Assembly (NCBI RefSeq): GCF_017304615.1
Contig: NZ_JAFKLZ010000001.1
Location: forward strand, 248,001-312,000
DNA: 64,000 nt
DNA from: Sphingomonas sp.
Lineage (GTDB): Bacteria > Pseudomonadota > Alphaproteobacteria > Sphingomonadales > Sphingomonadaceae
Direction: 5' to 3'
In this document: positions 45,293 through 62,416 of the stretch, in pieces
How the letters are laid out: the number at the start of each line of letters is the position of its first letter
Position numbering within the stretch: position 1 is the first letter of the stretch
Notes under the pieces: generated by a model
Databases searched by the model: none
Told to the model about the DNA's origin: nothing
The model's input: the letters and a program-made list of their open reading frames with translations, nothing else
Made by a program: the position numbers and the translations under genes

Positions 45293-45595
45293 CGAATCAC
45301 CTTCGCATTCCGGCGACAGCTGGAATGGCTCACAATTGAATTGTCCGAATCCCGCTCCTGCGGAAGCACCGTCGCTATCGCTCTCCGGCGAATGGTGACC
45401 CCTACGGGAGGGGGTGGCGGGTTGACGCTACGAGGGAGAATAGCCTGGGAGGGTCCGACGCGCAAACGCGTTTTGGACCACCCGTTTGTATCACTTTGAA
45501 GAGAAATTCGAGGGCGCCTTTCGGCTGAACCGGAAGGTGAAATGAACTGCGCTTCGCGCCTCAGCCAGCGACGACGCGCTGACCCTGGAATCTCA
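45293..45595. other. Gene-poor boundary with a tRNA 3'-end fragment
   Basis: About 300 bases without a convincing gene. At 45393-45409 the plus strand reads tggtgacccctacggga. On the minus strand this is the last 17 bases of a tRNA: T-arm end, acceptor strand, discriminator A and CCA. No other tRNA parts surround it, so it looks like an attachment-site remnant left by site-specific integration. A small hairpin cgcg-caaa-cgcg followed by tttt lies at about 45459-45474. Confidence 0.5.
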
Positions 45596-46126
45596 ATGAC
45601 TGACCACAATGACATGATTAACGTGCCTGCTACCGAAGTGGGTGCGGCAACACTCGCCTTCGCTAGGAAGGCGGGCTGGACGATAGACCGCAGCGTCACG
45701 TTCGCGCTCCCGCCCGAGCACTGGGCTTTCCACTATGTCCCGGCGGCCGAATTGCTGTTGCTACCCGTGGCTGGCTCGCACGCCAAGGCTTTCGAGCCGA
45801 CTGCCAGCGCCGTTCGCCAAGCGCGCAGCGATGCCATTATCGTCAGCCTCGGCCATGCGGCATCCGGCGAGCGACAGGTCTTCGCCTCGATATGCATTTG
45901 GTCGAGCATCGGTGTCGTCCGTTACGGGCCGCATCTGCCGTGGCTAAGTACGAGCGGAGATTTGTGGCTCGTGCCCGATCCTCGCGCGCGCGTCGACGAG
46001 GAGCCGTCGTTCCTGCTCACCACCGACCGGCTCGTGCCGAAAACGCTCCCTGCCACCAATGATCTCGATCGGCGGCGCGGCCTTGTCGCGGCGCGACAGT
46101 TCTTCAACGCCGAGATGGAGGGCTGA
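45596..46126 (+). CDS. Hypothetical protein
   Basis: 176-residue soluble protein. The start is uncertain: the ATG at 45542 has a better ribosome site (ggaagg) but adds an Arg-rich stretch unlike the rest, while the ATG at 45596 begins MTDHNDMINVPATEVGAATL. Beta-strand-like segments (HYVPAAELLLLPV, DAIIVSLGHA) are seen, but no known family. It is 2 bases before the next gene, so the pair is an operon ended by the terminator at 46775. Confidence 0.65.
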   Translation: MTDHNDMINVPATEVGAATLAFARKAGWTIDRSVTFALPPEHWAFHYVPAAELLLLPVAGSHAKAFEPTASAVRQARSDAIIVSLGHAASGERQVFASICIWSSIGVVRYGPHLPWLSTSGDLWLVPDPRARVDEEPSFLLTTDRLVPKTLPATNDLDRRRGLVAARQFFNAEMEG

Positions 46127-46128
46127 CC

Positions 46129-46752
46129 ATGTCGAAGTGGATCAGTCCGGGCGAAGCCGCCGACATGGTATATGACGACCCTGCCAAGCTGGGCGGTGAT
46201 ACCGATTTCAAATTCGCCATTTATTGGGCGCGCGGCAGGGATGGCGCGACCAACAGAGTCTCGGACCTGGCGCGAGCCAAGCTCCAGCCGCGACGGCCAA
46301 CCGATGAGGAGGTTGCAGCAGCAGGTTCGGAATGGGCGATCACCGCTCACGACCACCGTATCGTCCTAGCGCCACGCACGGCAGATGTGCCTAGTCCCCG
46401 CCGGCTGTTTGAGGATTACGACGCCGATATGGCGCCGGGTCAGAACATCACCGCAATCGTGCAGACGCTCGTGTTTCCAAAGGATCGCACGATCCATGAC
46501 CAGATGGACATGACCCTGGCTTATGCCCTGACGTTTCTTCGACCGAAGCAACTGTCGTCGATGATCGTTCAGCATCGGGCTGGCGGTAGCCGCTCCGCAC
46601 GCCTTCCTCATACCCATATCGTGACGCTGACGGCCACGGCGGATGCAGCGGGGTATTCGGAGGAACATGCGATGTTCGCGGATGCACCCGCTGAGATGCA
46701 CCGCCAGTTCGAGGCAGACTGGCGGCGCTTCGTTAAGGCCTATCCGGCCTAA
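46129..46752 (+). CDS. Hypothetical protein
   Basis: 207-residue soluble protein without signal peptide or membrane segment. Its C-terminal half contains LPHTHIVTLTATADA, and the end is acidic and aromatic (EMHRQFEADWRRFVKAYP). The family is unknown. It is coupled to the gene at 45596 by a 2-base gap and followed by a strong terminator. The lack of homology cues and its setting mark it as accessory. Confidence 0.65.
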   Translation: MSKWISPGEAADMVYDDPAKLGGDTDFKFAIYWARGRDGATNRVSDLARAKLQPRRPTDEEVAAAGSEWAITAHDHRIVLAPRTADVPSPRRLFEDYDADMAPGQNITAIVQTLVFPKDRTIHDQMDMTLAYALTFLRPKQLSSMIVQHRAGGSRSARLPHTHIVTLTATADAAGYSEEHAMFADAPAEMHRQFEADWRRFVKAYPA

Positions 46753-46774: not shown

Positions 46775-46810
46775 ATTGAGCCGGTTGCGGTAGCAATCGG
46801 CTCAATTTTC
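46775..46810 (+). terminator. Rho-independent terminator
   Basis: A 14-bp stem with one G-T pair: attgagccg pairs with cggctcaat, extended inward by gttgc with gcaat, around a ggta loop. It is followed by tttctc. It ends the two-gene unit 45596-46752 and isolates the GHKL gene. Confidence 0.85.
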
Positions 46811-46859: not shown

Positions 46860-48875
46860 ATGACCTCGATGCAAGGCGATATCGTCAATCGCGTGAAGCG
46901 GCTTCCCAAGCCGTCGCAGGCTGCGGAGGCGCTGCAACCGGTCTTTGAAGCTGTGAGCAACTCACTCCACGCAATCGAGGACGCTTACGGCGAAAGCCTG
47001 TTCCAGACCAAAGGCTCGATTGCGGTTACGATCAACAACCCGCGATCGCCGGACGAGATCGAGATCATCGTCGATGACAATGGGATTGGACTCGAGGCGC
47101 CTCGCTTCAAGGCGTTTTGCACAACTGACACCGACTATAAAATGTCGCGCGGAGGTAAGGGCGTCGGCCGCCTTCTGTGGCTCGATGCGTTCGAGAAAAT
47201 TAAGGTTGTCAGCGCCTTTAGAGAGAATGGGGCGGTCTGGCGGAGGTCGTTCACCTTTCGGCTAGAATCTCAGGATCAGATTACTGAGGAGTCCATGGTC
47301 GAGGTCGGTGGTCCTGAGAATCCAACTGGCACGTCGGTAACATTCTCGGGTTTACGCGGAAGCGCCTATCGCAGTAAATTTCCCAGCCAGGGCGCGACGA
47401 TCGTCAAGCACTTCGGCTCTCACTTTTTCGCCGATTTTATCCTCGGTCGCTCGCCAAAGATTGTTGTCGATATCGAAGGGAACTCGACAACCTTCCCAGA
47501 GGAAATTCAGAACCTCAAGATCGAGGACCGGGGCATCGCCACTCTATCGACGGGGGAGTTTGGCGACCTCTCGCTGGCGAGTTTTGTCTGCCACAAGAAC
47601 GCCAGCGCCAACTTCGACGGTCTCCACCAAATTCACTTGGTCGCCAACGGTCGCACCGTTACCACGCGCAAAATTGATGGGTTAATCGGGATTGGCCGCT
47701 TCGGTGCCGAAGCCGATCAGGTTTATCACGGTTGCGTGTCCGGTGATTATCTGGACGAGCGTGTCAACCAAGAGCGGACCCAGTTCAATTTCGACGAATC
47801 CATCGTCGAAGAAATCGTGCGCGAATGCGCCGGATATGTGCGCTCGACGGCTATCGGAGACGAGGTTCGCGAGTTCGATGATCATCGCCTCGGAACGCTG
47901 CGCAGCTTCGTCAATGAATATCCATCGTTCGGGTTTGAAGCCGCCGAGCAATTGCTGGAACGAACCCCAAAGAACGCGATCAAACCCGAGGAGTTTGCCC
48001 GCGCCCTCATCCCGTTCCGAATTCGCCGGGATAAGGAGCGAAATGACACGATCGAGCAGATCGTGGCTCAGCTCGATGGCAATCAAACGATACCAGCCGA
48101 TTTCGCGGCCTCCGTGCGGCAAGCCGCCGACGAGATTCGTGCGGAGGAACAGCGGCAGCTCACCGAGTATGTCCTCCGCCGGAAGACCGTCCTCGATGTG
48201 ATGGAAGTGCTGCTTCGGCGCATTCGCGAGCGCGAGGACGGCTCGCAAAACTTTCAGCTTGAGGAAACGTTACACCAGTTCATCTGCCCCATGAAGCTGC
48301 GGGGCGATGATCCGTCGAAGGTGGAGCAATCCGACCACGATCTGTGGATAATCGACGAACGACTGACCTTTCAGAAATACTTCGCGTCCGACGTGCCCTT
48401 CACGCAGATCCTGGTCGGAGAGGACAGCACGAAGCGTCCGGATTTGCTGATATATGATCGGCTGTATGGTCTAGGCGCGGAGGGTGAGGACCCGCTGACA
48501 AAGGTCATGCTAGTGGAGTTCAAGCATCCCGGCCGCAGGGATTACGAGGAGCGATATTCGCCGATGAACCAGATCAGCGAATACATCACCAAGCTCAAGG
48601 CGGGCCAGATCGAGGATTTCAATAATGCGCGAGTGCGCATTGCCGACGATTGCGTTTTCTACTGTTACGTTGTCGCCGATATCGTCGGAAAGCTGGAAAT
48701 TCACACAAATGGCTGGCGCACTACCGCAAACGGACGCGGGCGTATTCAGGAGCTAGGCGGAAAATTCCGGGGTATCGTTGAGGTTATCGAGTGGAAGGAT
48801 TTGCTCGCTGACGCGCGGCTACGCAATCATGCGTTTCTACACGCGGCTGGCCTGCGCTTCGATCGCCACCCGTAG
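46860..48875 (+). CDS. GHKL ATPase with C-terminal PD-(D/E)xK-like nuclease domain
   Basis: 671-residue protein. The N-terminal HSP90/MutL/MORC-type ATPase shows the N-box VFEAVSNSLHAIED (about 28-41), the G1 box DDNGIGLE (about 72-79) and the G2 box SRGGKGVGRLLW (about 96-107). A long middle includes charged helices. Near the C-terminus RPDLLIYD (about 526) and VMLVEFKHPGR (about 549) give the D...ExK signature of a restriction-endonuclease-like fold. ATP-driven clamp plus nuclease suggests anti-phage defence or DNA repair. The start at 46860 has ccaggga upstream; 46815 is an alternative. No system name can be assigned. Confidence 0.82.
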   Translation: MTSMQGDIVNRVKRLPKPSQAAEALQPVFEAVSNSLHAIEDAYGESLFQTKGSIAVTINNPRSPDEIEIIVDDNGIGLEAPRFKAFCTTDTDYKMSRGGKGVGRLLWLDAFEKIKVVSAFRENGAVWRRSFTFRLESQDQITEESMVEVGGPENPTGTSVTFSGLRGSAYRSKFPSQGATIVKHFGSHFFADFILGRSPKIVVDIEGNSTTFPEEIQNLKIEDRGIATLSTGEFGDLSLASFVCHKNASANFDGLHQIHLVANGRTVTTRKIDGLIGIGRFGAEADQVYHGCVSGDYLDERVNQERTQFNFDESIVEEIVRECAGYVRSTAIGDEVREFDDHRLGTLRSFVNEYPSFGFEAAEQLLERTPKNAIKPEEFARALIPFRIRRDKERNDTIEQIVAQLDGNQTIPADFAASVRQAADEIRAEEQRQLTEYVLRRKTVLDVMEVLLRRIREREDGSQNFQLEETLHQFICPMKLRGDDPSKVEQSDHDLWIIDERLTFQKYFASDVPFTQILVGEDSTKRPDLLIYDRLYGLGAEGEDPLTKVMLVEFKHPGRRDYEERYSPMNQISEYITKLKAGQIEDFNNARVRIADDCVFYCYVVADIVGKLEIHTNGWRTTANGRGRIQELGGKFRGIVEVIEWKDLLADARLRNHAFLHAAGLRFDRHP

Positions 48876-48912: not shown

Positions 48913-50289
48913 CTACGAATCGCTTGTAACGAAACACGTTCGCGCCAGGTGTGAAAGATCGAACATATGGGCGGCCCTGAACTCGGTTCGCGATAGGAGA
49001 TCGCGGTCGAGCGTGCCGTTTGGACGGAGCGCGATCGAGCCAATGTCGGCGAGGAAAGTCCGAGCCGTCGCTTGGGCCTGGATAGCCCATTGGGTGGGGT
49101 GTCGATCAGCAGCAGTATCGTTGTTGAGATCTACATCCTGCAACATCGCGCGTCGCGCAGCGTCGCCGAGGTTGATGGCACGCGTCCATAGCTTGCGGTC
49201 AATTGAGGCCGGGAATGGTCGCCGGGCAGCTGACCACAGATCATCGCTCATCGTGCCTCGGGCAATGATGCGGGCCATCGCCGCTTCCTCTTCGGCAAAG
49301 CGGTAGCAGGTTACGAACAGCGCAGCGACCGGGCTCAGGTTGGCGAACTGCCATTGGTGGATGGTAGCCTTGTGCGATTGGTCGGCAGTATCGGCTTGGA
49401 GCGCGCCTATGATGGTCGCTGCCTGTTCGGCAATCGCAACGGTGCGCTCCTTCACGATCGTTTTGGCGCCGTCCGTCATCCGCTGCTCGAGAGGAGCCGC
49501 GACGTCTTCGACTGTCGCGATCAGCGGCCCTTTGGGACCATGGATCTGCACCTTTTCCTTGCCGGCTTCACTGGCGAGGTCGGCGCTTCGATAGAGCCGA
49601 TCGATGGAAAATTCTGCACGCTTCATCAGATTGACCACGTCGGCGACAGTGTTCATCGCGCCGAAAATCTTCATGAACCACGGAATAAGCAGTCGCTGGA
49701 CATCGTCGCGACCGTGAACGGCAACCCGCTGGACATCGGCTGCCGCCCAAATCGCCCGCAATCCAGCCAATGCCGCAACGAGCGATGGCGTGCTCTCAAT
49801 TGAAGATTGCTCGAACAGAAATGCCGCAGCCGGAAAGTCACCAAGCATCGCGGCGGCGTAGAGAGCGGGTGATTGTGATCGGATCGTCCACATCGTCTCG
49901 GCGATGCGGTCAATCGGGCCGATCGTTCGGGTTACTTCCGCGATGGTCGCGGCTACAAACCCCGTTTCGTCACGAGTTCCGCGTGGATTGCGCGCGATCA
50001 ACGCCCGCAGATAGGGGGCGACGTATTCAATCCGGTCCGGAACATCCGATACGTTGAGTCGCGCATAAGCCGGAGCATACAGTCCTGGTGCCAGGGGACT
50101 GCGGTCGACGTTACGGATCGCCATCCCGTGGCGCTCATCCTCCGCCACGCTACCGTGCAAATGCGCATCGACCCAACGTTCCTGGAAGTCGGGTAACCCG
50201 TCCAGCTTGTCAGCCAGATCGTCATTGAACATGACTCTTGCCGCCCGAGCGGCCTCGGTCATGGGGTTCGGATCGTCTGAACCGGCCAT
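48913..50289 (-). CDS. Hypothetical protein in a three-gene unit
   Basis: 458-residue, mostly helical soluble protein. The N-terminal part has ERWVDAHLHGSVAEDERHGM. The middle is helical with IRSQSPALYAAAMLGDFPAA and AGLRAIWAAADVQRV. The C-terminal part contains RTFLADIGSIALRPNGTLDR. No known motif is seen. It is the last gene of the unit 51216-48913 and convergent with the GHKL gene, 37 bases away. It may be a transfer or maintenance gene of the element, or part of a defence unit; neither is supported by homology. Confidence 0.7.
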   Translation of the reverse strand: MAGSDDPNPMTEAARAARVMFNDDLADKLDGLPDFQERWVDAHLHGSVAEDERHGMAIRNVDRSPLAPGLYAPAYARLNVSDVPDRIEYVAPYLRALIARNPRGTRDETGFVAATIAEVTRTIGPIDRIAETMWTIRSQSPALYAAAMLGDFPAAAFLFEQSSIESTPSLVAALAGLRAIWAAADVQRVAVHGRDDVQRLLIPWFMKIFGAMNTVADVVNLMKRAEFSIDRLYRSADLASEAGKEKVQIHGPKGPLIATVEDVAAPLEQRMTDGAKTIVKERTVAIAEQAATIIGALQADTADQSHKATIHQWQFANLSPVAALFVTCYRFAEEEAAMARIIARGTMSDDLWSAARRPFPASIDRKLWTRAINLGDAARRAMLQDVDLNNDTAADRHPTQWAIQAQATARTFLADIGSIALRPNGTLDRDLLSRTEFRAAHMFDLSHLARTCFVTSDS

Positions 50290-51216: not shown

Positions 51217-51497
51217 ATGCGCTCACGACATCCTCGTAGGCATCTATGATGCCGGTGATCGTGAGCAGCGTGTCGCCGACGCCGCTTTCGCAAGGGCTGC
51301 GGGAAGCGGCGTGGGTGCCGCCACTGCTCACCCCGTCGATTTAGTCTTCGCCAACCGCGGCGTCAGCGGCGGATAGGACACGCGATACGCGGAGTTACCT
51401 CACCCGTGTCTATTGGACTCGGCTTGATCACGACCAACGCCAATGATCCCGTGTCCTGACTGAGCTGCGACGGAGGGGCAGATCAGGTCAGTCAAAT
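51217..51497. other. Intergenic region before the candidate oriT
   Basis: The region between the divergent unknown gene and the palindromic region. A minus-strand frame starting at GTG 51331 (SGVGDTLLTITGIIDAYEDV) looks coding-like for about 40 codons but then overlaps the 224-residue gene in another frame. It may be a remnant or a start of a disrupted gene. Nothing else is seen. Confidence 0.35.
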
Positions 51498-51577
51498 GGA
51501 GGGGGTGGTGCGCAGTAACCGCGAAATCCGCCCCACCGCTGACGGATGGGGGGATTTCATCGTGCTCCACCCCCTCC
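51498..51577. promoter_or_regulatory. Nested inverted repeats, candidate oriT or relaxase operator
   Basis: The outer arms ggagggggtgg (51498-51508) and ccaccccctcc (51567-51577) are perfect. Inside, aaatccgcccc pairs imperfectly with ggggggattt. The element ends 17 bases before the relaxase ATG. Inverted repeats directly upstream of a relaxase gene are typical of transfer origins; transcription control of the relaxase is the alternative. Confidence 0.45.
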
Positions 51578-51594
51578 TCGGGACAGGGCGAGAA

Positions 51595-54042
51595 ATGGCG
51601 ACCTTTTATGTTGGTGCACGGCGGGCAAGGGACGGCGAGATCGCCGCCGAATGCCATACGTCGTCGCTAATGCTCAACCATGCGAGCCGGTCGCTGCGGC
51701 AGACCGAAGCGCAGCCTCGCCATGGCAAGCATGCTCGGCTCAGTCCGGAAGAACGAAGCCGCCGCAACGCCGATCGCGCGGCTCGGCGGCGGCAGTTGCA
51801 GCGCAAGAAGGAAACGTTTGCGGAACTTGCCGAGCAGCGTGCGGCGCGCCAGCGCGTGCGCGAAGAGGAAGCGTGGCTCAAACGCAAGACCATCCGTGTG
51901 AAGGTGGCGAAAGCCGACCGCTCGAAGGTCACCAGGTATGGTGGGCGTCGTCACTATCGTCAGCGTGAACGATTCGAACGCGTGGTCCTGCCAAGCTGGA
52001 GCAACACCAGATTTTCGCCGCAGACCGGATTGGTCTGGCGAATCAAAGGCCGGAGCATGGGCGGACAGGGACGGAGTAGATACCGTCGTCGAGAATGCTC
52101 GCGTTTCGCGCGCTATTGCATCAACCAGGCCGCGTTGGAACTAGCGCCTGAGGCGGCGATCTTCACCTCGATCGTTCCGCCGCATGTTAGCCGTGACAGC
52201 GATGAATTCGCGCGCGAACTGGTTACGTTCCTCGACGCGGCCGAGGATCTGGAGCGCGAGATCGACCCTACCGGCCAACTCTACAAGTCAATCATCGTGC
52301 CGCTGCCGCACGACATCAGCCCAGAGCGTCGGCGTGACATCGCGGCAGCCTATGCGCGTCAGTTCGACCGGCACAAGCTACCCTACCTGCTTGTGTTGCA
52401 TGCCCCGGATCCCGGCGGCGACCAACGGAATTATCATATGCACGCGCTAGTGCTGACTCGCGCTTTTGAACGCGTGGGCGATTATGAATGGACGTTCGCG
52501 AAGACGAAAACGCGTGATCTCTTTCATCCGGCAATGCTCAAGGTGTGGCGACGCTACACCGTGAATCTGTTCAACCATCATCTGACCGAGGCGGGCATCG
52601 CCAGGCGCTATACGATCCGCGCCGTCGCACCCGTCGATAAGCATCAGGGCCGTGTCCGCACGATCGAACGGCGTAAGGCGGTATTGGCCGCCGAGGAGAA
52701 GCTGGTCGAGGCCAAGAAGAACCGCAGCCTGAGCGAGATTGTCGGCTCCTGCGCCAACGATTTGGTCGCAATCGCACATCGCCATGTCGAGATCGGCCGG
52801 ACGATCGGTCGGGTTCGAACGACGATGCTGAGCGAGATAAAGATCGAATGCTTGGCAGCGCAGAAAGCCATTGGGGAGCAGCGTGGCGCGCTCCAGCTCA
52901 CGGTGATGCTGGCCGATCTGCGTCGGCGCACGCTGGCGTTGCACGAACGCCGCGATCGGCTCGTCGCTCGCGCCCGGATCTCAACGTTACGCAAGGATAT
53001 TCGCGCCCGCTTGGTCGAGAGCGCAAAAGCCGTCGATCACCTCGGCGATATGTCGCGTCGGGCCATTCTATTGAGGGCGACTAGAGAACTTGCTGAATTG
53101 TCGCATCGAGTTCGAGCAGATCGTGCAGATCTGGTTTTGGCGGCGCGAATGGCGACGCAGGCTAGACGTATCGCAAACCTGCGTGACGCAATTCATTCTA
53201 CAGCTGAGATAAATAGGCAGGGCCGGCGACGCCTCGGCAAACTTCTTCGAAAGGGAGGGAGCGACGCTGGTGCGCGCGTGCGTAGCATGACCGAGAGCGC
53301 CGCGCGTCGTCAGGCCGAGTTGAGGAAGGTGCACCAGGCAGCACTGCGGCAACGAGCGCTGTCGCTACGCGATGCGTTGGCTACGATGCGAATGGATGTT
53401 GAGCTAGGTCGTCTTAATTTGCCTCGACCGCCGATGACCGGAATCATTGCGCAAGCCGCAAGGATCGGTGGGGTGGACCAGGTGCCGGTGTCGGGCGTCC
53501 AGCGGCGTTCAACTGCAATCGGACCCCGGCCTATTGCTGCGCCCAACAGGCTCGAGCTTAGCGCGCCGTTGGGCAGCATGCCCATCGATCTAACCATGTT
53601 CGATTCCGCGATACGAGATCTTCCTGCTTCGCGTGTATCGGAAATTGCGAGCGAGCTTGGCGACCTGCGGGCGGCGATCCGTTCCAATCAGGCGCATCTC
53701 TATCGAACCGGCCCTAATTTGCGCGTGGTGACTGACGATCCTATTGTGCGTGCGGTAGTAGGCCGGATCCTCAACAATCCCGCTGGCAAATCGATCTTAT
53801 TGTCGATTGGCCGTCCGACGGCAGATAAAGCGACCGCACCGGTATCGCGCCAGCTGAGTCTGGCTGAGCGGGAGCGCTTGCGATCTTCTACGCCGACCGC
53901 AGTGCCCTCGCTCCATAAGAGTCCCTTGCAACAGGCACCTTCGAGCGAGATCGAGCCAGCGCCGACGGAGCAAGCGCCCGATATCGATCGCGACCGTGAT
54001 GATGATCAGGCCGGAATTTCGCGGGGCGGTGCCGAGCGATGA
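51595..54042 (+). CDS. MobA/MobL-type relaxase, divergent, with long Arg-rich N-terminus
   Basis: 815-residue protein. The relaxase core lies at about residues 160-330. It has IVPLPHDISPERRRDIAAAY and a HUH-type metal motif with His281 and His283 (RNYHMHALVLTRAFERVG), as in MobA/MobL and TraA DNA nickases. A possible catalytic Tyr is in RFARYCINQA. It is preceded by about 150 residues very rich in Arg/Glu and followed by a long coiled-coil tail. The frame opens at 51496, but that part is the palindromic region, so the ATG at 51595 is chosen. No type IV secretion genes are near. Confidence 0.78.
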   Translation: MATFYVGARRARDGEIAAECHTSSLMLNHASRSLRQTEAQPRHGKHARLSPEERSRRNADRAARRRQLQRKKETFAELAEQRAARQRVREEEAWLKRKTIRVKVAKADRSKVTRYGGRRHYRQRERFERVVLPSWSNTRFSPQTGLVWRIKGRSMGGQGRSRYRRRECSRFARYCINQAALELAPEAAIFTSIVPPHVSRDSDEFARELVTFLDAAEDLEREIDPTGQLYKSIIVPLPHDISPERRRDIAAAYARQFDRHKLPYLLVLHAPDPGGDQRNYHMHALVLTRAFERVGDYEWTFAKTKTRDLFHPAMLKVWRRYTVNLFNHHLTEAGIARRYTIRAVAPVDKHQGRVRTIERRKAVLAAEEKLVEAKKNRSLSEIVGSCANDLVAIAHRHVEIGRTIGRVRTTMLSEIKIECLAAQKAIGEQRGALQLTVMLADLRRRTLALHERRDRLVARARISTLRKDIRARLVESAKAVDHLGDMSRRAILLRATRELAELSHRVRADRADLVLAARMATQARRIANLRDAIHSTAEINRQGRRRLGKLLRKGGSDAGARVRSMTESAARRQAELRKVHQAALRQRALSLRDALATMRMDVELGRLNLPRPPMTGIIAQAARIGGVDQVPVSGVQRRSTAIGPRPIAAPNRLELSAPLGSMPIDLTMFDSAIRDLPASRVSEIASELGDLRAAIRSNQAHLYRTGPNLRVVTDDPIVRAVVGRILNNPAGKSILLSIGRPTADKATAPVSRQLSLAERERLRSSTPTAVPSLHKSPLQQAPSSEIEPAPTEQAPDIDRDRDDDQAGISRGGAER

Positions 54043-55015: not shown

Positions 55016-56332
55016 ATGTTCTCCGTGCTCGCCAACCGCACCTATCGCCATCTGTTCCTGGCGCAGATCATCGCGCTGATCGGGACGGGGTTGGCCACGG
55101 TCGCGCTTGGACTGCTCGCCTACGACATCGCCGGTGGCGATGCCGGAGCCGTGCTCGGGACCGCGCTCGCGATCAAGATGGTCGCCTACATCGGCGTTGC
55201 CCCGATCGCCGGGGCGTTCGCGAACAAGGTGCCGCGTCGGGCATTGCTCGTCGCGATGGACGTGCTGCGCGCCGGCGTCGCCGTCTGCCTGCCGTTCGTC
55301 ACACAGGTGTGGCAGGTCTATGTCCTGATCTTCGTGCTTCAGTCGGCTTCGGCCGCCTTTACCCCGACCTTCCAGGCGACGATTCCAGACGTCCTGGCGG
55401 AAGAGCGCGATTATACCCGCGCGCTGTCACTGTCGCGGCTGGCCTATGACATGGAGAGCCTGACCAGCCCGATCCTGGCGGCGGGGCTGCTGACGCTGAT
55501 CAGTTACCACTGGCTGTTTTCGGGCACCGCGATCGGGTTCGTCGCCTCGGCGCTGCTCGTCGTCTCGACGACGCTGCCGCGTCCGAAGCCGATCGAGGAT
55601 GAAGGTGGCATCTACGACAAGACGACGCGCGGCACGCGCATCTACCTGAAGACGCCGCGCCTGCGTGGGTTGCTGGCGCTGACACTGGCGGCGGCGGCGG
55701 CCAGCGCGATGGTGATCGTCAACACCGTGGTCATCGTGCGGGGAATGGGCCTGAGCCAGCGCGACGTCGCGCTGACCTTGGCGGCGTTCGGCGGCGGATC
55801 GATCACGGCGGCGCTGACCCTGCCGCGCATCCTTGATCGCATCTCCGATCGCACGGTGATGCTGGTTGCCGCCGCGCTGATGACGATGGTGCTCGCGGCG
55901 ATGGCGGTGGTCACTCTCGTGATGGGAAAGAGCGGGGGCTATTGGTTCGTGCTACTTGCCGGCTGGCTGGTGATGGGTGTGGCCTATTCGGCGAGCGTCA
56001 CGCCATCGGGCCGGCTGCTGCGCCGCTCCGCTCATGCCGAGGATCGACCCGCACTGTTCGCGGCGCAATTCGCGCTCAGCCATGTCTGCTGGCTGATCTG
56101 CTATCCGCTGGTCGGCCAGCTCGGTGCGCGGGTCGGCATGGCCGCAGCATTCGGGGGCATGGCGGTGATCGCCGCGATCGGCACGCTGCTGGCGCTGTGG
56201 CTGTGGCCCGCCAACGACCCCGACGTGGTCGCTCACGCTCATGGCGACCTGGCGGCCGACGACCCGCACCATGCGGAGGGCGAGCACGACTTCGTGATCG
56301 ACAAGCGTCATCCTGATTGGCCCAAATCATGA
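55016..56332 (+). CDS. MFS metal exporter, NreB-like
   Basis: Inner-membrane MFS transporter of 438 residues with about 12 helices (FLAQIIALIGTGLATVALGL first). The C-terminal cytoplasmic tail is His-rich (VVAHAHGDLAADDPHHAEG, then EHDFVIDKRH). That tail, and the adjacent CsoR/RcnR repressor, resemble the nreB/nreA nickel resistance pair. Two operators lie directly upstream. It overlaps the next gene by 4 bases (ATGA), so it heads the resistance operon. Nickel is the best guess for substrate; cobalt is possible. Confidence 0.87.
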   Translation: MFSVLANRTYRHLFLAQIIALIGTGLATVALGLLAYDIAGGDAGAVLGTALAIKMVAYIGVAPIAGAFANKVPRRALLVAMDVLRAGVAVCLPFVTQVWQVYVLIFVLQSASAAFTPTFQATIPDVLAEERDYTRALSLSRLAYDMESLTSPILAAGLLTLISYHWLFSGTAIGFVASALLVVSTTLPRPKPIEDEGGIYDKTTRGTRIYLKTPRLRGLLALTLAAAAASAMVIVNTVVIVRGMGLSQRDVALTLAAFGGGSITAALTLPRILDRISDRTVMLVAAALMTMVLAAMAVVTLVMGKSGGYWFVLLAGWLVMGVAYSASVTPSGRLLRRSAHAEDRPALFAAQFALSHVCWLICYPLVGQLGARVGMAAAFGGMAVIAAIGTLLALWLWPANDPDVVAHAHGDLAADDPHHAEGEHDFVIDKRHPDWPKS

Positions 56333-56721
56333 CCGCCATCGTCTTGCCGCCACTGGGGCGTTCGCATAGGCTGCGGACCGTGCCCATCCGGCGTCCTCGA
56401 CCCGCGCTCTTGAGCGTCATCCTCGCCATCCTCGCGGTGATGACGATGAGCGCCGTGTCGACGTGGCACAGCGCGAGCTTCCATGACGACGACCCGATCC
56501 ACGCTGCGTCGGTGACGCATGTCCACAGCGATAGCGGATCGGTCGATCCCGATGCGCCTATCCATGTCGCCGCGCATATGGTCGGCCAAGGCATCGATCT
56601 CCCGTCGGTGACGACCGCGCCGCTCTATGCGGCTAGGGAAGTCGTGCGGTGGCAGATGACCCCCAGCGGCTTCACGCCAGGCGAGGATCCGGCGTCACCG
56701 CTTAGACCGCCCCGAGCCTGA
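56329..56721 (+). CDS. Small His-rich exported protein of the metal cluster
   Basis: 130-residue protein with one hydrophobic helix (ALLSVILAILAVMTMSAVST, about 24-43) and a periplasmic part rich in His and Asp (WHSASFHDDDPIHAASVTHV then HSDSG and PIHVAAHMVG). The composition points to metal binding in the periplasm, as in CzcI/CnrX-like accessory proteins, without clear homology. It overlaps the MFS gene by 4 bases and precedes czcC by 54. Confidence 0.75.
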   Translation: MTAIVLPPLGRSHRLRTVPIRRPRPALLSVILAILAVMTMSAVSTWHSASFHDDDPIHAASVTHVHSDSGSVDPDAPIHVAAHMVGQGIDLPSVTTAPLYAAREVVRWQMTPSGFTPGEDPASPLRPPRA

Positions 56722-56775
56722 TCTCTCTAGCGCGCGTCGCCGCGCCACGAGGATCAATCAGGCAAGGACATCGAT

Positions 56776-58035
56776 ATGAACGGCACTTTACGCCGGCGAC
56801 GCCTCGTGGCGTTGCTCGGCGGACTCGCGAGCATGGCGCTCGCCGGGTCGGCGTGGGCAGACCCTGCGCCTCCCTTCGCGCAATTGTTGAAGCAGGCGGA
56901 AAGCTCTCCGCGCATGAAGGCGATCGAGGCCGACGTCGATCGCGCCAAGGGGCTATCGGACCAGGCCAGGGCACGGCCCAACCCCACGGTTAGCGTATAT
57001 GGCGAGAACATCGCGGGATCATCGCCCTATTCGGGGTTCGATCGCAGCGAGACGACACTGCAGTTCAACCAGCCGTTCGAGATAGGCGGCAAGCGCTCGG
57101 CGCGGATCGCGGCGGGTGAGGCCGGGGTTGTTGCCGCCAGAGCACGCGGACGGCAGGGTCGGATCGCCTTCGCCTATGAACTGGCGCTGGCTTATGTCGC
57201 GGTTGAACTGGCTGATCGCCGCATCGCCTTGGCCGAGGACGAGATCGAGGAAGCCGAGGCCGATCTGAAGCTGGCCCGCGCGCTGGTCGAGGCTGGCAAG
57301 GAAACGCGGCTACGCGCGCTGCAGGCTGAGACCGAACTCAACGCCGCACAGGCGGTGCTCGAAGGAGCCAAGGCGACACGCACCGCCGCGCTCGCCAGAC
57401 TATCGGCGATGGCCGGGGTCGAAACGCCATTCACCGGCGTGTCCGAATCGCTGCTCGATCGCATGACACCGCGCACGACCTATGGCCCGGTCGACCCGAT
57501 GCAGAGTGCTGGCTATATCAGCGCGCTGGCCGATCGCGACGCCGCCGTCCGTCGTGCTGCATCGGAGCGCAAGCGGGCGATCCCGGACGTGACCGGTCAG
57601 CTCGGAATTCGGCGCCTGCAAGGGGACCGCGCGACCGCATTGGTCGCGGGCATCTCGCTGCCGCTCAACCTGTTCGATCGCAACAAGGGCAATATCGCGG
57701 CGGCCGATGCCGATGTGCGCGGCGCCGATGCGCGTGCCGAGGCAACCCGACTGGAAGCGGCGGCTAACGTCGCCGCAGCACTGGCGTTGGTCGAAGCCGC
57801 CGATGCGCGCGTCGCCGCCGCCGAGCGGACGATGGGGAACGCAACTGAAACCTATCGCCTCGCTCGGATCGCTTATGAGGCCGGCAAATCGCCGCTTAGC
57901 GAACTGCTCGTCGCCCGTCACGGCCTTGGCGTGGCACGCGGGGTCGTCGTCGACGCCGCCGCCGCCCGTCTCGATGCTCGCGCCCAACTCGCCAGCCTGC
58001 AAGGCCTGGCCGTCACCGGAGAACCGGTTCAATGA
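56776..58035 (+). CDS. czcC: Outer membrane efflux protein CzcC (TolC family)
   Basis: Outer membrane channel of the tripartite heavy-metal pump, 419 residues. A signal peptide (LLGGLASMALAGSAWA) is followed by two outer-membrane-efflux repeats with long helices (EDEIEEAEADLKLARALVEA and ERTMGNATETYRLARIAYEA). The stretch YSGFDRSETTLQFNQPFEIG is typical of CzcC-type TolC proteins. It overlaps czcB by 4 bases. Confidence 0.94.
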   Translation: MNGTLRRRRLVALLGGLASMALAGSAWADPAPPFAQLLKQAESSPRMKAIEADVDRAKGLSDQARARPNPTVSVYGENIAGSSPYSGFDRSETTLQFNQPFEIGGKRSARIAAGEAGVVAARARGRQGRIAFAYELALAYVAVELADRRIALAEDEIEEAEADLKLARALVEAGKETRLRALQAETELNAAQAVLEGAKATRTAALARLSAMAGVETPFTGVSESLLDRMTPRTTYGPVDPMQSAGYISALADRDAAVRRAASERKRAIPDVTGQLGIRRLQGDRATALVAGISLPLNLFDRNKGNIAAADADVRGADARAEATRLEAAANVAAALALVEAADARVAAAERTMGNATETYRLARIAYEAGKSPLSELLVARHGLGVARGVVVDAAAARLDARAQLASLQGLAVTGEPVQ

Positions 58036-59195
58036 CCAATAATCGCCTGTATGCCGGGGCCGCACTCGGTCTCGTGCTCGTCGCCGCCTTGGGATTCGGA
58101 GCCGGCCGGATGACGCAGTCTCCACCTGCTGCTGCCCCGACGACTGCCACCGCCGCTGCTTCTGCCGCCGCGCCGAACGACACCGTGGAACTCGACGCCG
58201 CCGGCATCAAGACCGCCGGCATCACGATAGCGCCAGCCGCTGCCGGTGAACTCGACACCGCCATCGCCGCGTCGGCGACCGTCGAGGCGACACCCGACGC
58301 CGAAGCGGTGCTGACCGCCCGCGCGCCCGGCACGGTCACGCGCATCTTCAAGCGCATCGGCGACCCAATCCGCGCCGGCGAGACGATGGCACTGGTCGAA
58401 AGTCGCGACGCCTCGGCGATCGCCGCCGATCGTGCCGCCGCCGCCGCCCGCGTGACCCTGGCCTCGAAGCAGGTGGCGCGCGAGCGCTCGCTGCTCGCGC
58501 AAGGGGTCAGCCCGCGTGCCGATTACGAGACGGCGCAGGCTAACCTTGCCGTGGCCGAAGCCGATGCCCGGCGTGCGAGTGCCGCCGCCGGCGCGGTGCG
58601 CCTGTCGGGTGACGGCCGATCGGTCGCGGTCGTGAGTCCCGTCACCGGCCGCGTTACCGCTGCCTCGGCCAAGCTGGGCCAGTTCGTTGCCGCCGAGGCC
58701 GAGCTGTTCCGTGTCGCCGATCCGACGCGGCTTCAGATCACCGCCAGCCTCCCGCCAGCGGATGCGTCGCGCGTGCGCGCCGGTGACCGCGTGGAGCTGA
58801 CCACCAGCGACGGGCGCACGATCGAAGGCCGCGTCCGCTCGGAGACCGGCGTGGTCGACCCCGACACACGGTCTGCGACGATCATCATCGAGCCGAGCGC
58901 AGGTGGTAGCCTGCTGGTGCCCGGTCAGCTCGCGCAGGCGCGCATTTTCGCCAGCGGCGGCGCCGCCAAATCGGGCGTGATGGTGCCGCAGGATGCGGTG
59001 CAGACGATCGGCGACCGAACGGTCGTGTTCGTCCGCACGGGCAAGGGCTTCAGGGCTCAGACCGTGCAGGTCGGTAGTCGCAGCGGCGGGCTGGTCGCAA
59101 TCACTTCTGGCCTGTCGGCGGGCACGCCGATCGCGACGGTCAACGCCTTCCTGCTCAAGGCTGAGATCGAGAAGAACGAAGGGGGCGACGAATGA
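58032..59195 (+). CDS. czcB: Periplasmic adaptor CzcB (RND membrane fusion protein)
   Basis: 387-residue adaptor linking CzcA to CzcC. An N-terminal anchor (LYAGAALGLVLVAALGFGAG) is followed by lipoyl-like halves around a helical hairpin (VTRIFKRIGDPIRAGETMAL ... VSPVTGRVTAASAKLGQFV), then beta-barrel and membrane-proximal domains (MVPQDAVQTIGDRTVVFVRT). It lacks the N-terminal His-rich metal-binding domain found in some CzcB proteins. It overlaps both neighbours by 4 bases. Confidence 0.95.
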   Translation: MTNNRLYAGAALGLVLVAALGFGAGRMTQSPPAAAPTTATAAASAAAPNDTVELDAAGIKTAGITIAPAAAGELDTAIAASATVEATPDAEAVLTARAPGTVTRIFKRIGDPIRAGETMALVESRDASAIAADRAAAAARVTLASKQVARERSLLAQGVSPRADYETAQANLAVAEADARRASAAAGAVRLSGDGRSVAVVSPVTGRVTAASAKLGQFVAAEAELFRVADPTRLQITASLPPADASRVRAGDRVELTTSDGRTIEGRVRSETGVVDPDTRSATIIIEPSAGGSLLVPGQLAQARIFASGGAAKSGVMVPQDAVQTIGDRTVVFVRTGKGFRAQTVQVGSRSGGLVAITSGLSAGTPIATVNAFLLKAEIEKNEGGDE

Positions 59196-62100
59196 TCGCG
59201 CGCATCCTTTCGATTTCGGTCCGCATGCGGTGGCTGGTCGCCGCGCTGACGCTGATCGTCATCGGCTTCGGCCTGTGGCAGATCACCAAGCTGCCGATCG
59301 ACGCGGTGCCCGACGTCACCAATCGTCAGGTGCAGATCAGCACCTTCGCGCCAACGCTGGGCCCGGTTGATATCGAGAAGCAGGTGACCTTCCCGGTCGA
59401 AACCGCGCTGGCGGGCATTCCGGGGCTGGAGATCACCCGGTCCTTTTCGCGCAACGGCTTCAGCCAAGTGACGGCGGTATTCACCGATTCGACCGACATC
59501 TATTTCGCGCGTCAGCAGGTGACCGAGCGGCTCGCTCAGGCCAAGGACAGTCTGCCCGTCGGGGTGCAGCCCAATCTCGCACCGCTCAGCACCGGGCTGG
59601 GCGAGATATTCTTCTATTCGGTCGCGTTCCGCCATCCCGATGGCAAGGGCATCAAGGCGGTCGACGGCAAGCCTGGCTGGCAATCGGACGGCAGTTACCT
59701 GACTCCCGAGGGCGAGCGGTTGACCACCGAGCTCGCCAAGGCGGCCTATCTGCGCACGGTGCAGGATTGGATCATCCGGCCGCAGATGCGCAACGTGAAG
59801 GGCGTCGCCGGCGTCGATTCCAACGGCGGCTATGTGAAGCAATATCTGGTCGAGCCGAACCTGAACGCGCTCGCCACCTATGGCCTGTCGATCACCGAAC
59901 TGGCGGACGCGCTGGAGCGGGCCAATCTGTCGGCGGGGTCGAACTATGTCCGCCGTGCGGGCGAGAGCTTCCTGGTCCGCGCCGATGCCCGCCTGAAGTC
60001 GATCGCCGACATCGAGGAAGCGGTGGTCGCCACCCGCGCCGGCACGCCGGTGCGTGTGAAGGACGTAGGACAGGTCGTCATCGGTGGCGCGGTCCGCACC
60101 GGATCGGGCAGCCGCATGGGATCGGAGGCGGTCATCTCGACCGTGCTGATGCTGGTCGGCAGCAACAGCCGCATCGTCGCGACGAGCGCGGCGGAGAAGC
60201 TGACTCTCGTCAACAAATCGCTGCCGCCCGATATCTTCGCTGAGCCGGTCTATAACCGGTCGAAGTTGGTCAACGCCACGATCGCCACGGTCGAGAAGAA
60301 CCTGACCGAGGGCGCTTTGCTCGTCATCGTCGTTCTGTTCCTGCTGCTCGGCAACATCCGCGCGGCGCTCATCACGGCGGCAGTGATCCCCGTTACCATG
60401 CTGATGACGGCGGCGGGCATGAACGGGCTTGGCGTGTCGGGCAATCTGATGAGCCTGGGTGCGCTCGACTTCGGCCTGATCGTCGACGGCGCAGTCATCA
60501 TCGTAGAGAATGCGCTCAGGCGGCTCGCCGAGCGGCAAGAGCATGAAGGGCGGCTGCTCACCCGCGAGGAACGAATGGAAGAGACGACGCTTGCCGCGCA
60601 GGAGATGGTGCGGCCGACCGTCTATGGTCAGCTCATCATCTTCCTCGTCTTCGTGCCGCTGCTCACCTTTCAGGGGGTAGAGGGCAAGACCTTCTCGCCG
60701 ATGGCGATCACGCTGATGGTCGCGCTGGCGAGCGCGTTCGTCCTGTCGTTGACCTTTGTGCCGGCGATGATCGCGCTGCTCATCAAGGGCAAGGTTAGAG
60801 AGACCGAGGTCAAGCCGATCCGTTGGTTCAAGGAGAAATACGCGCCCCTCTTGCAGCGTGCGGTCACTCGTCCGTTACCGTTCATTCTGGGCGGGGCCGG
60901 CGTGTTCGTGGCGGCGATCCTGTGCTTCGGGTTACTCGGCGAGGAGTTCATGCCGCAGCTCGACGAGAAGGACATCACCGTCACCAACTTCCGCGTGCCC
61001 TCGGCTTCGATCGACCAGTCGACGCAGATGCAGCTCAAGATCGAGGACGCGCTGAAGTCCTTGCCCGAGGCAGCGTTGGTATTTTCCAAGAACGGCAATG
61101 CCGATCTTGGCACAGACCCGATGCCGCCCAACGCCTCGGACACCTATTTCATCCCCAAGCCCGAGAGCGAATGGCCGGCCGACGTGCACAGCAAGGAGGA
61201 CATCCTCAAGCGAATCGAGGCCAAGATGAAGCCACTGATAGGCAACCGGACCGAAATTCAGCAGCCGATCCAGATGCGCTTCAACGAGCTGATCGCGGGT
61301 GTTCGGGCGGATGTTGCGGTCAAACTCTATGGCGACGATCTTGACGCGATGAGCCAGCAGGCCAAGCGCATCGCCGGGGTGCTGCGCACCATCCCCGGCG
61401 CGGGCGACGTCAGCGCCGAGCAGACCGATGGCGCCCCGACCTTCGACGTGAAGATCGATCGCCAGGCGGTGGCGCGTTACGGCCTGTCGGTCGAGGAGGT
61501 GGCGAATACCGTCGCCGCCGCACTCGGTGGGCGTGAAGCTGGACTGCTGTTCGAGGGCGACCGGCGCTTCTCGGTGGTTGTCCGCCTGCCCGATGCGCAA
61601 CGTGACGATCTGGAAACGCTGGGGGCGATCCCGGTGATGTTGCCAGCGGCCGAGGGCCAGGTCGCCCGCTCGATCCCGCTGCGCGAGGTGGCGCGGTTCA
61701 GCTACACCAATGGCTTGAACCAGGTCAGCCGCGAGAACGGCAAGCGCATGGTGACCGTGCAGGTCAACGTGCGTGGCCGTGACCTGGGCGGGTTCGTCGA
61801 CGAGGCGCAGGCAAAGATCAATTCGCTGCAACTGCCCGCCGGGATGTATACGGCATGGGGCGGAACGTTCGAGAGCCTGCAATCGGCGCGGCTCAGGCTG
61901 ATGATCGTGGTGCCGATCGTGTTCGTGGCGATCTTCGGCCTGCTCTATATGGCGCTGGGCGGCGTTGGCCGTGCGGCGATAGTGTTCAGCGCGGTGCCAA
62001 TGGCGCTGGCGGGCGGCGTATTCGCGCTCCTGCTGCGGGGCATCCCGTTCTCGATCACGGCGGCGGTTGGCTTTATCGCACTGTCGGGCGTCGCGGTGCT

Positions 62101-62416
62101 CAACGGACTCGTGATGATGAGCGCGATCCGCAAATATCAGGATGACGGCGCCGACGAGGACGATGCGATCGTAAATGGCGCGATGGAGCGCGTCCGCCCG
62201 GTGCTGATGACCGCGTTGGTCGCCAGCCTCGGCTTCGTGCCGATGGCACTGGCGACCGGCACCGGTGCGGAGGTGCAGCGACCGCTGGCAACCGTGGTGA
62301 TCGGCGGGTTGATCACATCCACCGCGCTCACCCTGCTGGTGCTGCCAGCCATCGCCGCCTGGGCGGGGCGGCTGCGCAAACGCCCGGTGCAAGAAGGCGC
62401 GATTGCAGCACTCTGA
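59192..62416 (+). CDS. czcA: Heavy-metal RND efflux pump CzcA
   Basis: Inner-membrane proton-driven exporter of the HME-RND family, 1074 residues, with 12 helices in two halves and two large periplasmic loops. The proton/metal relay in helix 4, DFGLIVDGAVIIVEN (about 427-441), contains the two Asp and the Glu known to be essential in CzcA. It separates this pump from Cu/Ag (CusA) types. The likely substrates are Co/Zn/Cd or Ni/Co; the repressor and the NreB-like gene in the same operon favour Ni/Co. Confidence 0.96.
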   Translation: MIARILSISVRMRWLVAALTLIVIGFGLWQITKLPIDAVPDVTNRQVQISTFAPTLGPVDIEKQVTFPVETALAGIPGLEITRSFSRNGFSQVTAVFTDSTDIYFARQQVTERLAQAKDSLPVGVQPNLAPLSTGLGEIFFYSVAFRHPDGKGIKAVDGKPGWQSDGSYLTPEGERLTTELAKAAYLRTVQDWIIRPQMRNVKGVAGVDSNGGYVKQYLVEPNLNALATYGLSITELADALERANLSAGSNYVRRAGESFLVRADARLKSIADIEEAVVATRAGTPVRVKDVGQVVIGGAVRTGSGSRMGSEAVISTVLMLVGSNSRIVATSAAEKLTLVNKSLPPDIFAEPVYNRSKLVNATIATVEKNLTEGALLVIVVLFLLLGNIRAALITAAVIPVTMLMTAAGMNGLGVSGNLMSLGALDFGLIVDGAVIIVENALRRLAERQEHEGRLLTREERMEETTLAAQEMVRPTVYGQLIIFLVFVPLLTFQGVEGKTFSPMAITLMVALASAFVLSLTFVPAMIALLIKGKVRETEVKPIRWFKEKYAPLLQRAVTRPLPFILGGAGVFVAAILCFGLLGEEFMPQLDEKDITVTNFRVPSASIDQSTQMQLKIEDALKSLPEAALVFSKNGNADLGTDPMPPNASDTYFIPKPESEWPADVHSKEDILKRIEAKMKPLIGNRTEIQQPIQMRFNELIAGVRADVAVKLYGDDLDAMSQQAKRIAGVLRTIPGAGDVSAEQTDGAPTFDVKIDRQAVARYGLSVEEVANTVAAALGGREAGLLFEGDRRFSVVVRLPDAQRDDLETLGAIPVMLPAAEGQVARSIPLREVARFSYTNGLNQVSRENGKRMVTVQVNVRGRDLGGFVDEAQAKINSLQLPAGMYTAWGGTFESLQSARLRLMIVVPIVFVAIFGLLYMALGGVGRAAIVFSAVPMALAGGVFALLLRGIPFSITAAVGFIALSGVAVLNGLVMMSAIRKYQDDGADEDDAIVNGAMERVRPVLMTALVASLGFVPMALATGTGAEVQRPLATVVIGGLITSTALTLLVLPAIAAWAGRLRKRPVQEGAIAAL

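Follow-up and report, generated by a model that had tools for sequence, protein, structure and literature searches.

P0001, a 671-residue protein encoded in the window (the whole 64,000-nt stretch of Sphingomonas DNA analyzed here), is very probably an anti-phage protein of the paraMORC3 or GHKL-type Shedu kind, built to the VcSduA design and acting as a single gene. The protein consists of two modules, an ATPase and a nuclease, and its catalytic residues are invariant across a family whose members are homologous over their full length. The predicted model has a GHKL+S5 fold, and the distribution of the family is patchy and indicates horizontal spread. A sequence-only reading of this DNA had put the gene forward as a defense candidate, and that proposal is well supported, given that VcSduA, a protein of the same design, loses protection when either its ATPase or its nuclease is mutated. 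The gene, its parts, and the hairpin that precedes it are located as follows.

46775..46810, + strand: terminator-like hairpin, after the 207-aa ORF and before the gene (sequence, folding energy)
46860..48875, + strand: GHKL ATPase-nuclease protein (paraMORC3 / VcSduA-like; window protein P0001), 671 aa (ORF and alignments)
46860..47984, + strand: residues 1-375, GHKL ATPase and S5/transducer module (E30, N34, D73, G75, G77, G98, G101, G103, R306)
47985..48224, + strand: residues 376-455, helical connector (secondary structure of the predicted model)
48225..48872, + strand: residues 456-671, PD-(D/E)xK-type nuclease domain (E468-D528-E553-x-K555, Q571; invariance in alignment A3, profile matches)

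The open reading frame at 46860-48875 runs from ATG to TAG with no internal stop and is present as one copy in its own 3.34-Mb genome. Its first methionine lines up with the starts of all 12 other rows of alignment A1. We examined the catalytic motifs in two wider alignments. Alignment A3 consists of P0001 and 43 others that are 23-87% identical to it (8 of 13 species-genome loci and 35 of 39 IMG/VR loci, with near-duplicates and fragments excluded), and alignment A2 consists of 20 sequences that are 21-87% identical to P0001, with rows from 6 of the 13 species-genome loci, 12 of 58 plasmid records, and 1 phage. The ATPase boxes of P0001 are all intact (N box E30xxxN34, G1 D73xG75xG77, G2 G98xxG101xG103), and E30, N34, D73, G75, G77, G98, G101, G103, and R306 are invariant in 44 of 44 A3 sequences, P0001 included. 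The same is true of the nuclease signature, E468-D528-E553xK555 plus Q571. In A2, the set from E30 through K555, together with R306, is likewise invariant, and Q571 is nearly so. Both the intact boxes of a MORC/HSP90-like ATPase and the C-terminal D...ExK nuclease signature, as read earlier from the letters, are therefore confirmed. Because relatives at only 21-23% identity still align with P0001 end to end, the conservation of these motifs goes beyond chance. R306 is a candidate contact for the gamma-phosphate.

Compared to the closest relative, L002, the nuclease is the best-conserved part of the protein, at 94% identity versus 82% for the ATPase part. Between copies of the P0001 family, dN ranged from 0.09 to 0.26, and dS was either undefined or 2.5-3.6; we give no dN/dS value because dS was undefined, which we read as saturated, in most comparisons. 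Given that the catalytic residues are kept and that the protein has diverged little where synonymous sites seem saturated, the gene appears to be under selection.

A structure model built from 44 diverse alignment rows reached a pLDDT of 87; a model built from 13 close relatives only reached 60, and its C-terminus was unusable. In a fold search, residues 4-375 of the predicted model matched Hsp90, MORC, TopoVI-B, and MutL, which suggests that the GHKL+S5 ATPase module of P0001 shares the fold of MORC, MutL, and TopoVI-B. The C-terminal parts of those three proteins differ from that of P0001. Because GHKL proteins fill the match lists obtained with the whole model, the lack of Shedu or other nuclease structures in those lists says nothing about the C-terminal domain. 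Among sequence models, the Pfam HATPase_c match to P0001 fell under its cut-off, as did the NCBIfam TopoVI-B match (E 0.0065, 15 bits versus a cut-off of 274). We discarded the matches to Pfam HTH_1, an NCBIfam histidine-kinase model, and PHROG 6203, which were weak and under or without cut-offs. Matches of solved-structure sequences to ubiquitin, around residues 378-486 and thus chiefly in the helical connector, were likewise dropped; they gave 6-9 bits per stretch in the three alignments shown and were absent when the family profile was used.

The earlier reading also held that this two-domain protein matches none that can be named, which is not supported. The design has been known as paraMORC3 since 2008 and as anti-phage since 2025, in the form of the GHKL-type (type I-D) Shedu protein VcSduA. 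Iyer, Abhiman and Aravind (2008, PMC2292703) defined paraMORC3 computationally as GHKL plus S5 plus a C-terminal RE-fold domain bearing E-D-ExK. Judged by that published definition, P0001 is alike in its GHKL domain with conserved ATP-binding motifs, its S5 region after the GHKL domain, and its C-terminal E-D-ExK. The same paper describes paraMORC3 as prevalent in proteobacteria and Bacteroidetes, with a subset standing alone, to which a possible role outside restriction-modification (RM) was allowed, and with other members adjoining RM and SFII helicase genes; its main text names no GIY-YIG partner (PMC2292703).

VcSduA, from VSP-II of Vibrio cholerae, carries a GHKL ATPase at its N-terminus and a PD-(D/E)xK DUF4263 domain at its C-terminus and, expressed alone in E. 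coli, protects against T1-like Drexlerviridae; the mutations E27A and K557A abolish phage protection (PMC12137116). Its phage results are repeated in PMC12409362. According to its authors, proteins organized in this way had been annotated as paraMORC3; they place VcSduA in Shedu type I-D and hypothesize that its nuclease is kept under the control of the GHKL domain, acting within a dimer that has a clamp-like middle domain (PMC12137116). P0001 similarly has an N-terminal GHKL ATPase, a middle module, and a C-terminal PD-(D/E)xK domain in one gene, and its catalytic Glu and Lys (E30 and K555) stand at nearly the same places as E27 and K557 of VcSduA. The tie between P0001 and VcSduA is drawn from published text and from a stand-in, the Vibrio fluvialis protein L015, by which the two proteins would be much diverged: L015 is 27% identical to P0001 and has its N-box Glu at position 27 (counted by eye) and its ExK Lys at position 556. 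SduA of Shedu (DUF4263, PF14082), represented by EcSduA, which a 2026 review describes as a DNA-end-sensing nuclease, would share with P0001 a PD-(D/E)xK nuclease under N-terminal sensor/clamp control (PMC12904381).

The P0001 domain differs from SduA in that it escapes the Pfam and PADLOC models for that family and in that HsdR-N is nearly as close to it by profile. EcSduA is also not known to have a GHKL domain. PADLOC, which had been suggested as a check for a known defense system, gave no match for P0001; for the 20 A2 members, it gave no SduA match and one weak TmtA match. The PADLOC models used date from 2023 and are older than the published GHKL class of Shedu, and they do detect the SduA next door to the GHKL gene of L015 (E 3.6e-170). 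When sequences were read singly, Pfam SduA_C matched none of the 44 A3 members, and a PF14082 search of the own genome did not reach the ORF at 46860-48875.

Comparing profiles, we found that the C-terminal profile of A2 (from residue 455) matched an SduA_C profile at 93.7% (E 2e-7, 108 columns, extending to the SduA_C end). That SduA_C profile was built from 10 of the 11 SduA_C regions matched in other genomes; the remaining one, L042, was excluded and used as a bridge. The same kind of comparison gave 0.1-0.2% for the middle and N-terminal parts of A2, and among the controls, 20 column shuffles gave at most 1.4%, Mrr gave 0.4%, and RecB-type gave 0.3%. A Pfam HSDR_N match in 1 of the 44 A3 members (E 0.0032) prompted an additional HsdR-N control, and this profile matched the A2 C-terminal profile at 90.0% (E 1.7e-6, 73 columns). 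With the deeper A3 profile, the values were 93.6% for SduA_C and 89.0% for HsdR-N. Taken by themselves, the Mrr and RecB controls would make the match to SduA_C look specific, but the HsdR-N control showed that SduA_C is only slightly preferred. As far as profiles can place it, the C-terminal domain of P0001 is a PD-(D/E)xK domain of the SduA/HsdR neighborhood, with a small preference for SduA. Because PADLOC is empty, Pfam SduA_C matches 0 of 44 members, and HsdR-N is nearly tied, the sequence by itself does not prove the name Shedu.

A second route ties GHKL fusions to Shedu. L042 encodes a separate GHKL protein in a genome of the same class, and its C-terminus barely exceeds the Pfam SduA_C cut-off (27.5 bits versus 27, positions 3-60 of 159); the A2 profile aligns with L042 over the full span, from the N box to beyond the ExK (96.4%, E 1.1e-9). 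The locus itself (L042:1-1941, G265:C4) looks like a separate GHKL-Shedu fusion.

A search for close relatives in 84,980 species genomes gave 13 loci, one of them a fragment. Relatives were also present in 58 of 72,556 plasmid records (in 49 of them, over 80% or more of the query), in 1 of 50,697 phage records (phage PJN03, 23% identical, adjoining its integrase), and at 39 loci in IMG/VR viral contigs. Thirty of the 58 plasmid records are typed conjugative, and Agrobacterium accounts for 17 of the 58. Within the taxonomic family of the window, 12 of 249 genomes, in 12 of 96 genera, had a match at E <= 1e-20 (one partial, one with an internal stop), and none of the five other genus members sampled had one. 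Of 299 genomes sampled from the phylum, the profile found a match in 87 at E <= 1e-5, and the match went beyond the ATPase part in only seven (G000, G122, G035, G259, G248, G048, and G043). We used blastn to compare the window with eight relatives (L002, L003, L004, L005, L008, L010, L012, and L101); in all eight, only the gene was shared with the window and no other stretch. Short pieces with summed E-values in tblastx of the flanks (those printed, <60 aa) were not counted as shared genes. In a tree of 45 rows, drawn with a midpoint root, the window copy pairs with L002 (Sphingopyxis) with support of 100/100, and the clade around it includes Sphingomonas, Sphingopyxis, Roseiarcaceae, Maricaulis, Bartonella, and one viral contig. 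Overall, the P0001 family is patchy and horizontally spread, and it occurs on plasmids, viral contigs, and chromosomes. One relative (L018:7055-9082, 41% identical) lies beside repC on an Agrobacterium Ti plasmid, with TIR-domain and DUF3732 genes nearby.

In the window, the strong terminator proposed upstream of the gene is real as a hairpin, although the consensus terminator scan did not list it. It spans 46775-46806, has a 14-bp stem with one G-U pair and a 4-nt loop followed by TTTCTC, and folds at -27 kcal/mol (z -4.15). The gene starts 107 nt past the 207-aa ORF, and about 50 nt remain for a promoter after the hairpin; a consensus scan of those nucleotides found none.

The suggestion that the gene lies in a probable mobile element held up in part. 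Three observations favor it: a MobA/MobQ-like relaxase of 848 aa at 51496-54042, 2.6 kb downstream, which falls under the Pfam and NCBIfam curated cut-offs; a G+C contrast; and the eight relatives without shared flanks. Over the gene itself, G+C is 0.55-0.57; it is 0.62-0.68 between 42 and 46 kb, 0.58-0.64 across the 6 kb that follow the gene on its right side, and 0.64-0.72 beyond 54.5 kb. Against it, no element ends were found, and the flanks of three relatives gave no empty site. The left flank gene is present in 20 of 41 genomes, the own genome included, and the right-side MFS gene in 6 of 41, which are the own genome, one other strong match, and four weak ones. The ORFs at 45542-46126 (194 aa), 46129-46752 (207 aa), and 48913-50289 (458 aa) matched no Pfam, PADLOC, or PHROG family at the limits used. 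Further to the right, positions 55016-62416 encode an MFS transporter and, after it, the three parts of an RND efflux system (OEP, HlyD, AcrB), a region that looks accessory because its MFS gene matches only weakly in four sampled genus relatives.

Given that relatives sit on Ti and other conjugative plasmids and in viral contigs, and that the window has its own relaxase downstream, P0001 might serve to protect the mobile element that carries it from rival plasmids or phages, and not the host as such. We regard this as unlikely; it is nonetheless compatible with the anti-phage reading, and the published targets of VcSduA are phages (PMC12137116).

In four relatives that are 69-79% identical to P0001 (L003, L004, L008, and L010), the genes directly upstream of the GHKL gene encode, in order, a DEAD helicase and a GIY-YIG/T5orf172 protein (for example, at L003:6674-12010). 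The helicases are about 690-700 aa and the GIY-YIG proteins about 404-417 aa; the Pfam names were taken from L003 only. In all four, the GIY-YIG gene overlaps the GHKL gene by 4 nt, and the GHKL gene is last. Both partners were matched at just these four among the relatives' loci searched, many of which have little flank. The closest relative, L002 (87% identical), has 12 nt between its GHKL gene and the end of an upstream gene for a ResIII-type helicase of 978 aa. Neither partner was matched at the Bartonella loci L005, L006, L007, and L012 (only 4.5 kb of sequence precedes the gene in L007). Viral contig L101 has neither partner; downstream, on the opposite strand, it encodes a protein distantly related to the L002 helicase (26% over 623 columns, E 1.5e-28). 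In the own genome, neither partner was matched at E <= 0.001, an empty answer that, without a positive control, shows nothing.

These neighborhoods raise the tentative possibility that, in some alphaproteobacteria, the GHKL-nuclease ends an undescribed three-gene defense system (DEAD/SFII helicase - GIY-YIG - GHKL-nuclease), in which the helicase and GIY-YIG proteins may supply recognition, and that the window copy has gone solo. A literature search found no description of such an operon, which is not proof that it is undescribed. If the proposal is true, the ATPase-nuclease is separable from its partners yet kept by selection, and the operon may reveal how a GHKL ATPase learns what to cut. 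Among L003, L004, and L010, identities are 94% for the GHKL protein, 84-86% for the helicase, and 67-83% for the GIY-YIG protein; compared to L008, they are 69-70%, 78-80%, and 62-71%, respectively. Faster divergence of the partners is a weak sign of a role in specificity, since it holds among L003, L004, and L010 but not versus L008, where the helicase is better conserved than the GHKL protein. The pattern would also follow if L003, L004, and L010 had exchanged the GHKL gene.

Because four close relatives have operon partners and P0001 is without them, P0001 could instead be a disabled orphan: a subunit that has lost its partners from a restriction-like system of SFII helicase, GIY-YIG nuclease, and GHKL-nuclease and that is inactive alone or uses unrecognized partners elsewhere. 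The helicase 12 nt upstream in L002, the nesting of the window copy and L002 among operon copies in the midpoint-rooted tree, and the position of Vibrio relatives at the ends of type I RM operons are consistent with such an origin. We nevertheless find it quite improbable, considering the retained catalytic residues, the low dN beside dS values that are high or undefined, the four Bartonella loci where no partner was matched, and, for what an uncontrolled search is worth, the empty result in the own genome. VcSduA, moreover, protects alone in E. coli (PMC12137116), and because it does so and the catalytic residues are intact here, we favor solo activity for P0001. That P0001 is a MutL/TopoVI-like protein of DNA repair or chromosome housekeeping, as its fold, the weak TopoVI-B match, and the non-RM role allowed for standalone paraMORC3 (PMC2292703) might suggest, is very improbable given how patchily the gene occurs (in 12 of 249 genomes of its taxonomic family and in none of the five further members of the genus that were sampled), its relatives on plasmids and phages, the eight of eight relatives without shared flanks, and the result of the search for a known repair family raised earlier as a refutation, in which no curated repair-family model matched above its cut-off.

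In the most likely mechanism, P0001, as a single-gene anti-phage protein, would dimerize via its GHKL+S5 module. ATP binding would then shut an N-terminal gate, in the manner of MutL, TopoVI-B, and MORC proteins, around a sign of phage replication, which may be DNA, such as a replication intermediate, or DNA bound by protein. Closure of this clamp would lift inhibition of the C-terminal PD-(D/E)xK domains, and the freed domains would cut phage DNA, with the P0001 copy presumably doing so alone. P0001 extends the validated, little-studied GHKL-type Shedu class to a well-defined, mainly alphaproteobacterial branch, and its analysis yields a list of residues for direct mutant tests.

In the flanks of the relatives, we listed 63 neighboring ORFs, of which 24 were scanned with PADLOC (A4) and 9 with Pfam. 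Annotated RM genes occur in the flanks of 5 of the 12 plasmid regions opened (L015, L021, L022, L024, and L025). The GHKL genes of L015 and L024 close type I RM operons, and in G048 an HsdR-N match lies just downstream of the relative. On the Vibrio fluvialis plasmid (L015:6625-10016), a true SduA gene overlaps the GHKL-nuclease gene by 4 nt at the end of the type I RM operon, so that this operon holds two Shedu-like nucleases. In L003, a HamB-like (Hachiman) helicase gene (L003:12885-16202, PADLOC E 1.8e-29) comes directly after the GHKL operon, and the gene ahead of the helicase encodes a protein of 287 aa with no family assigned.
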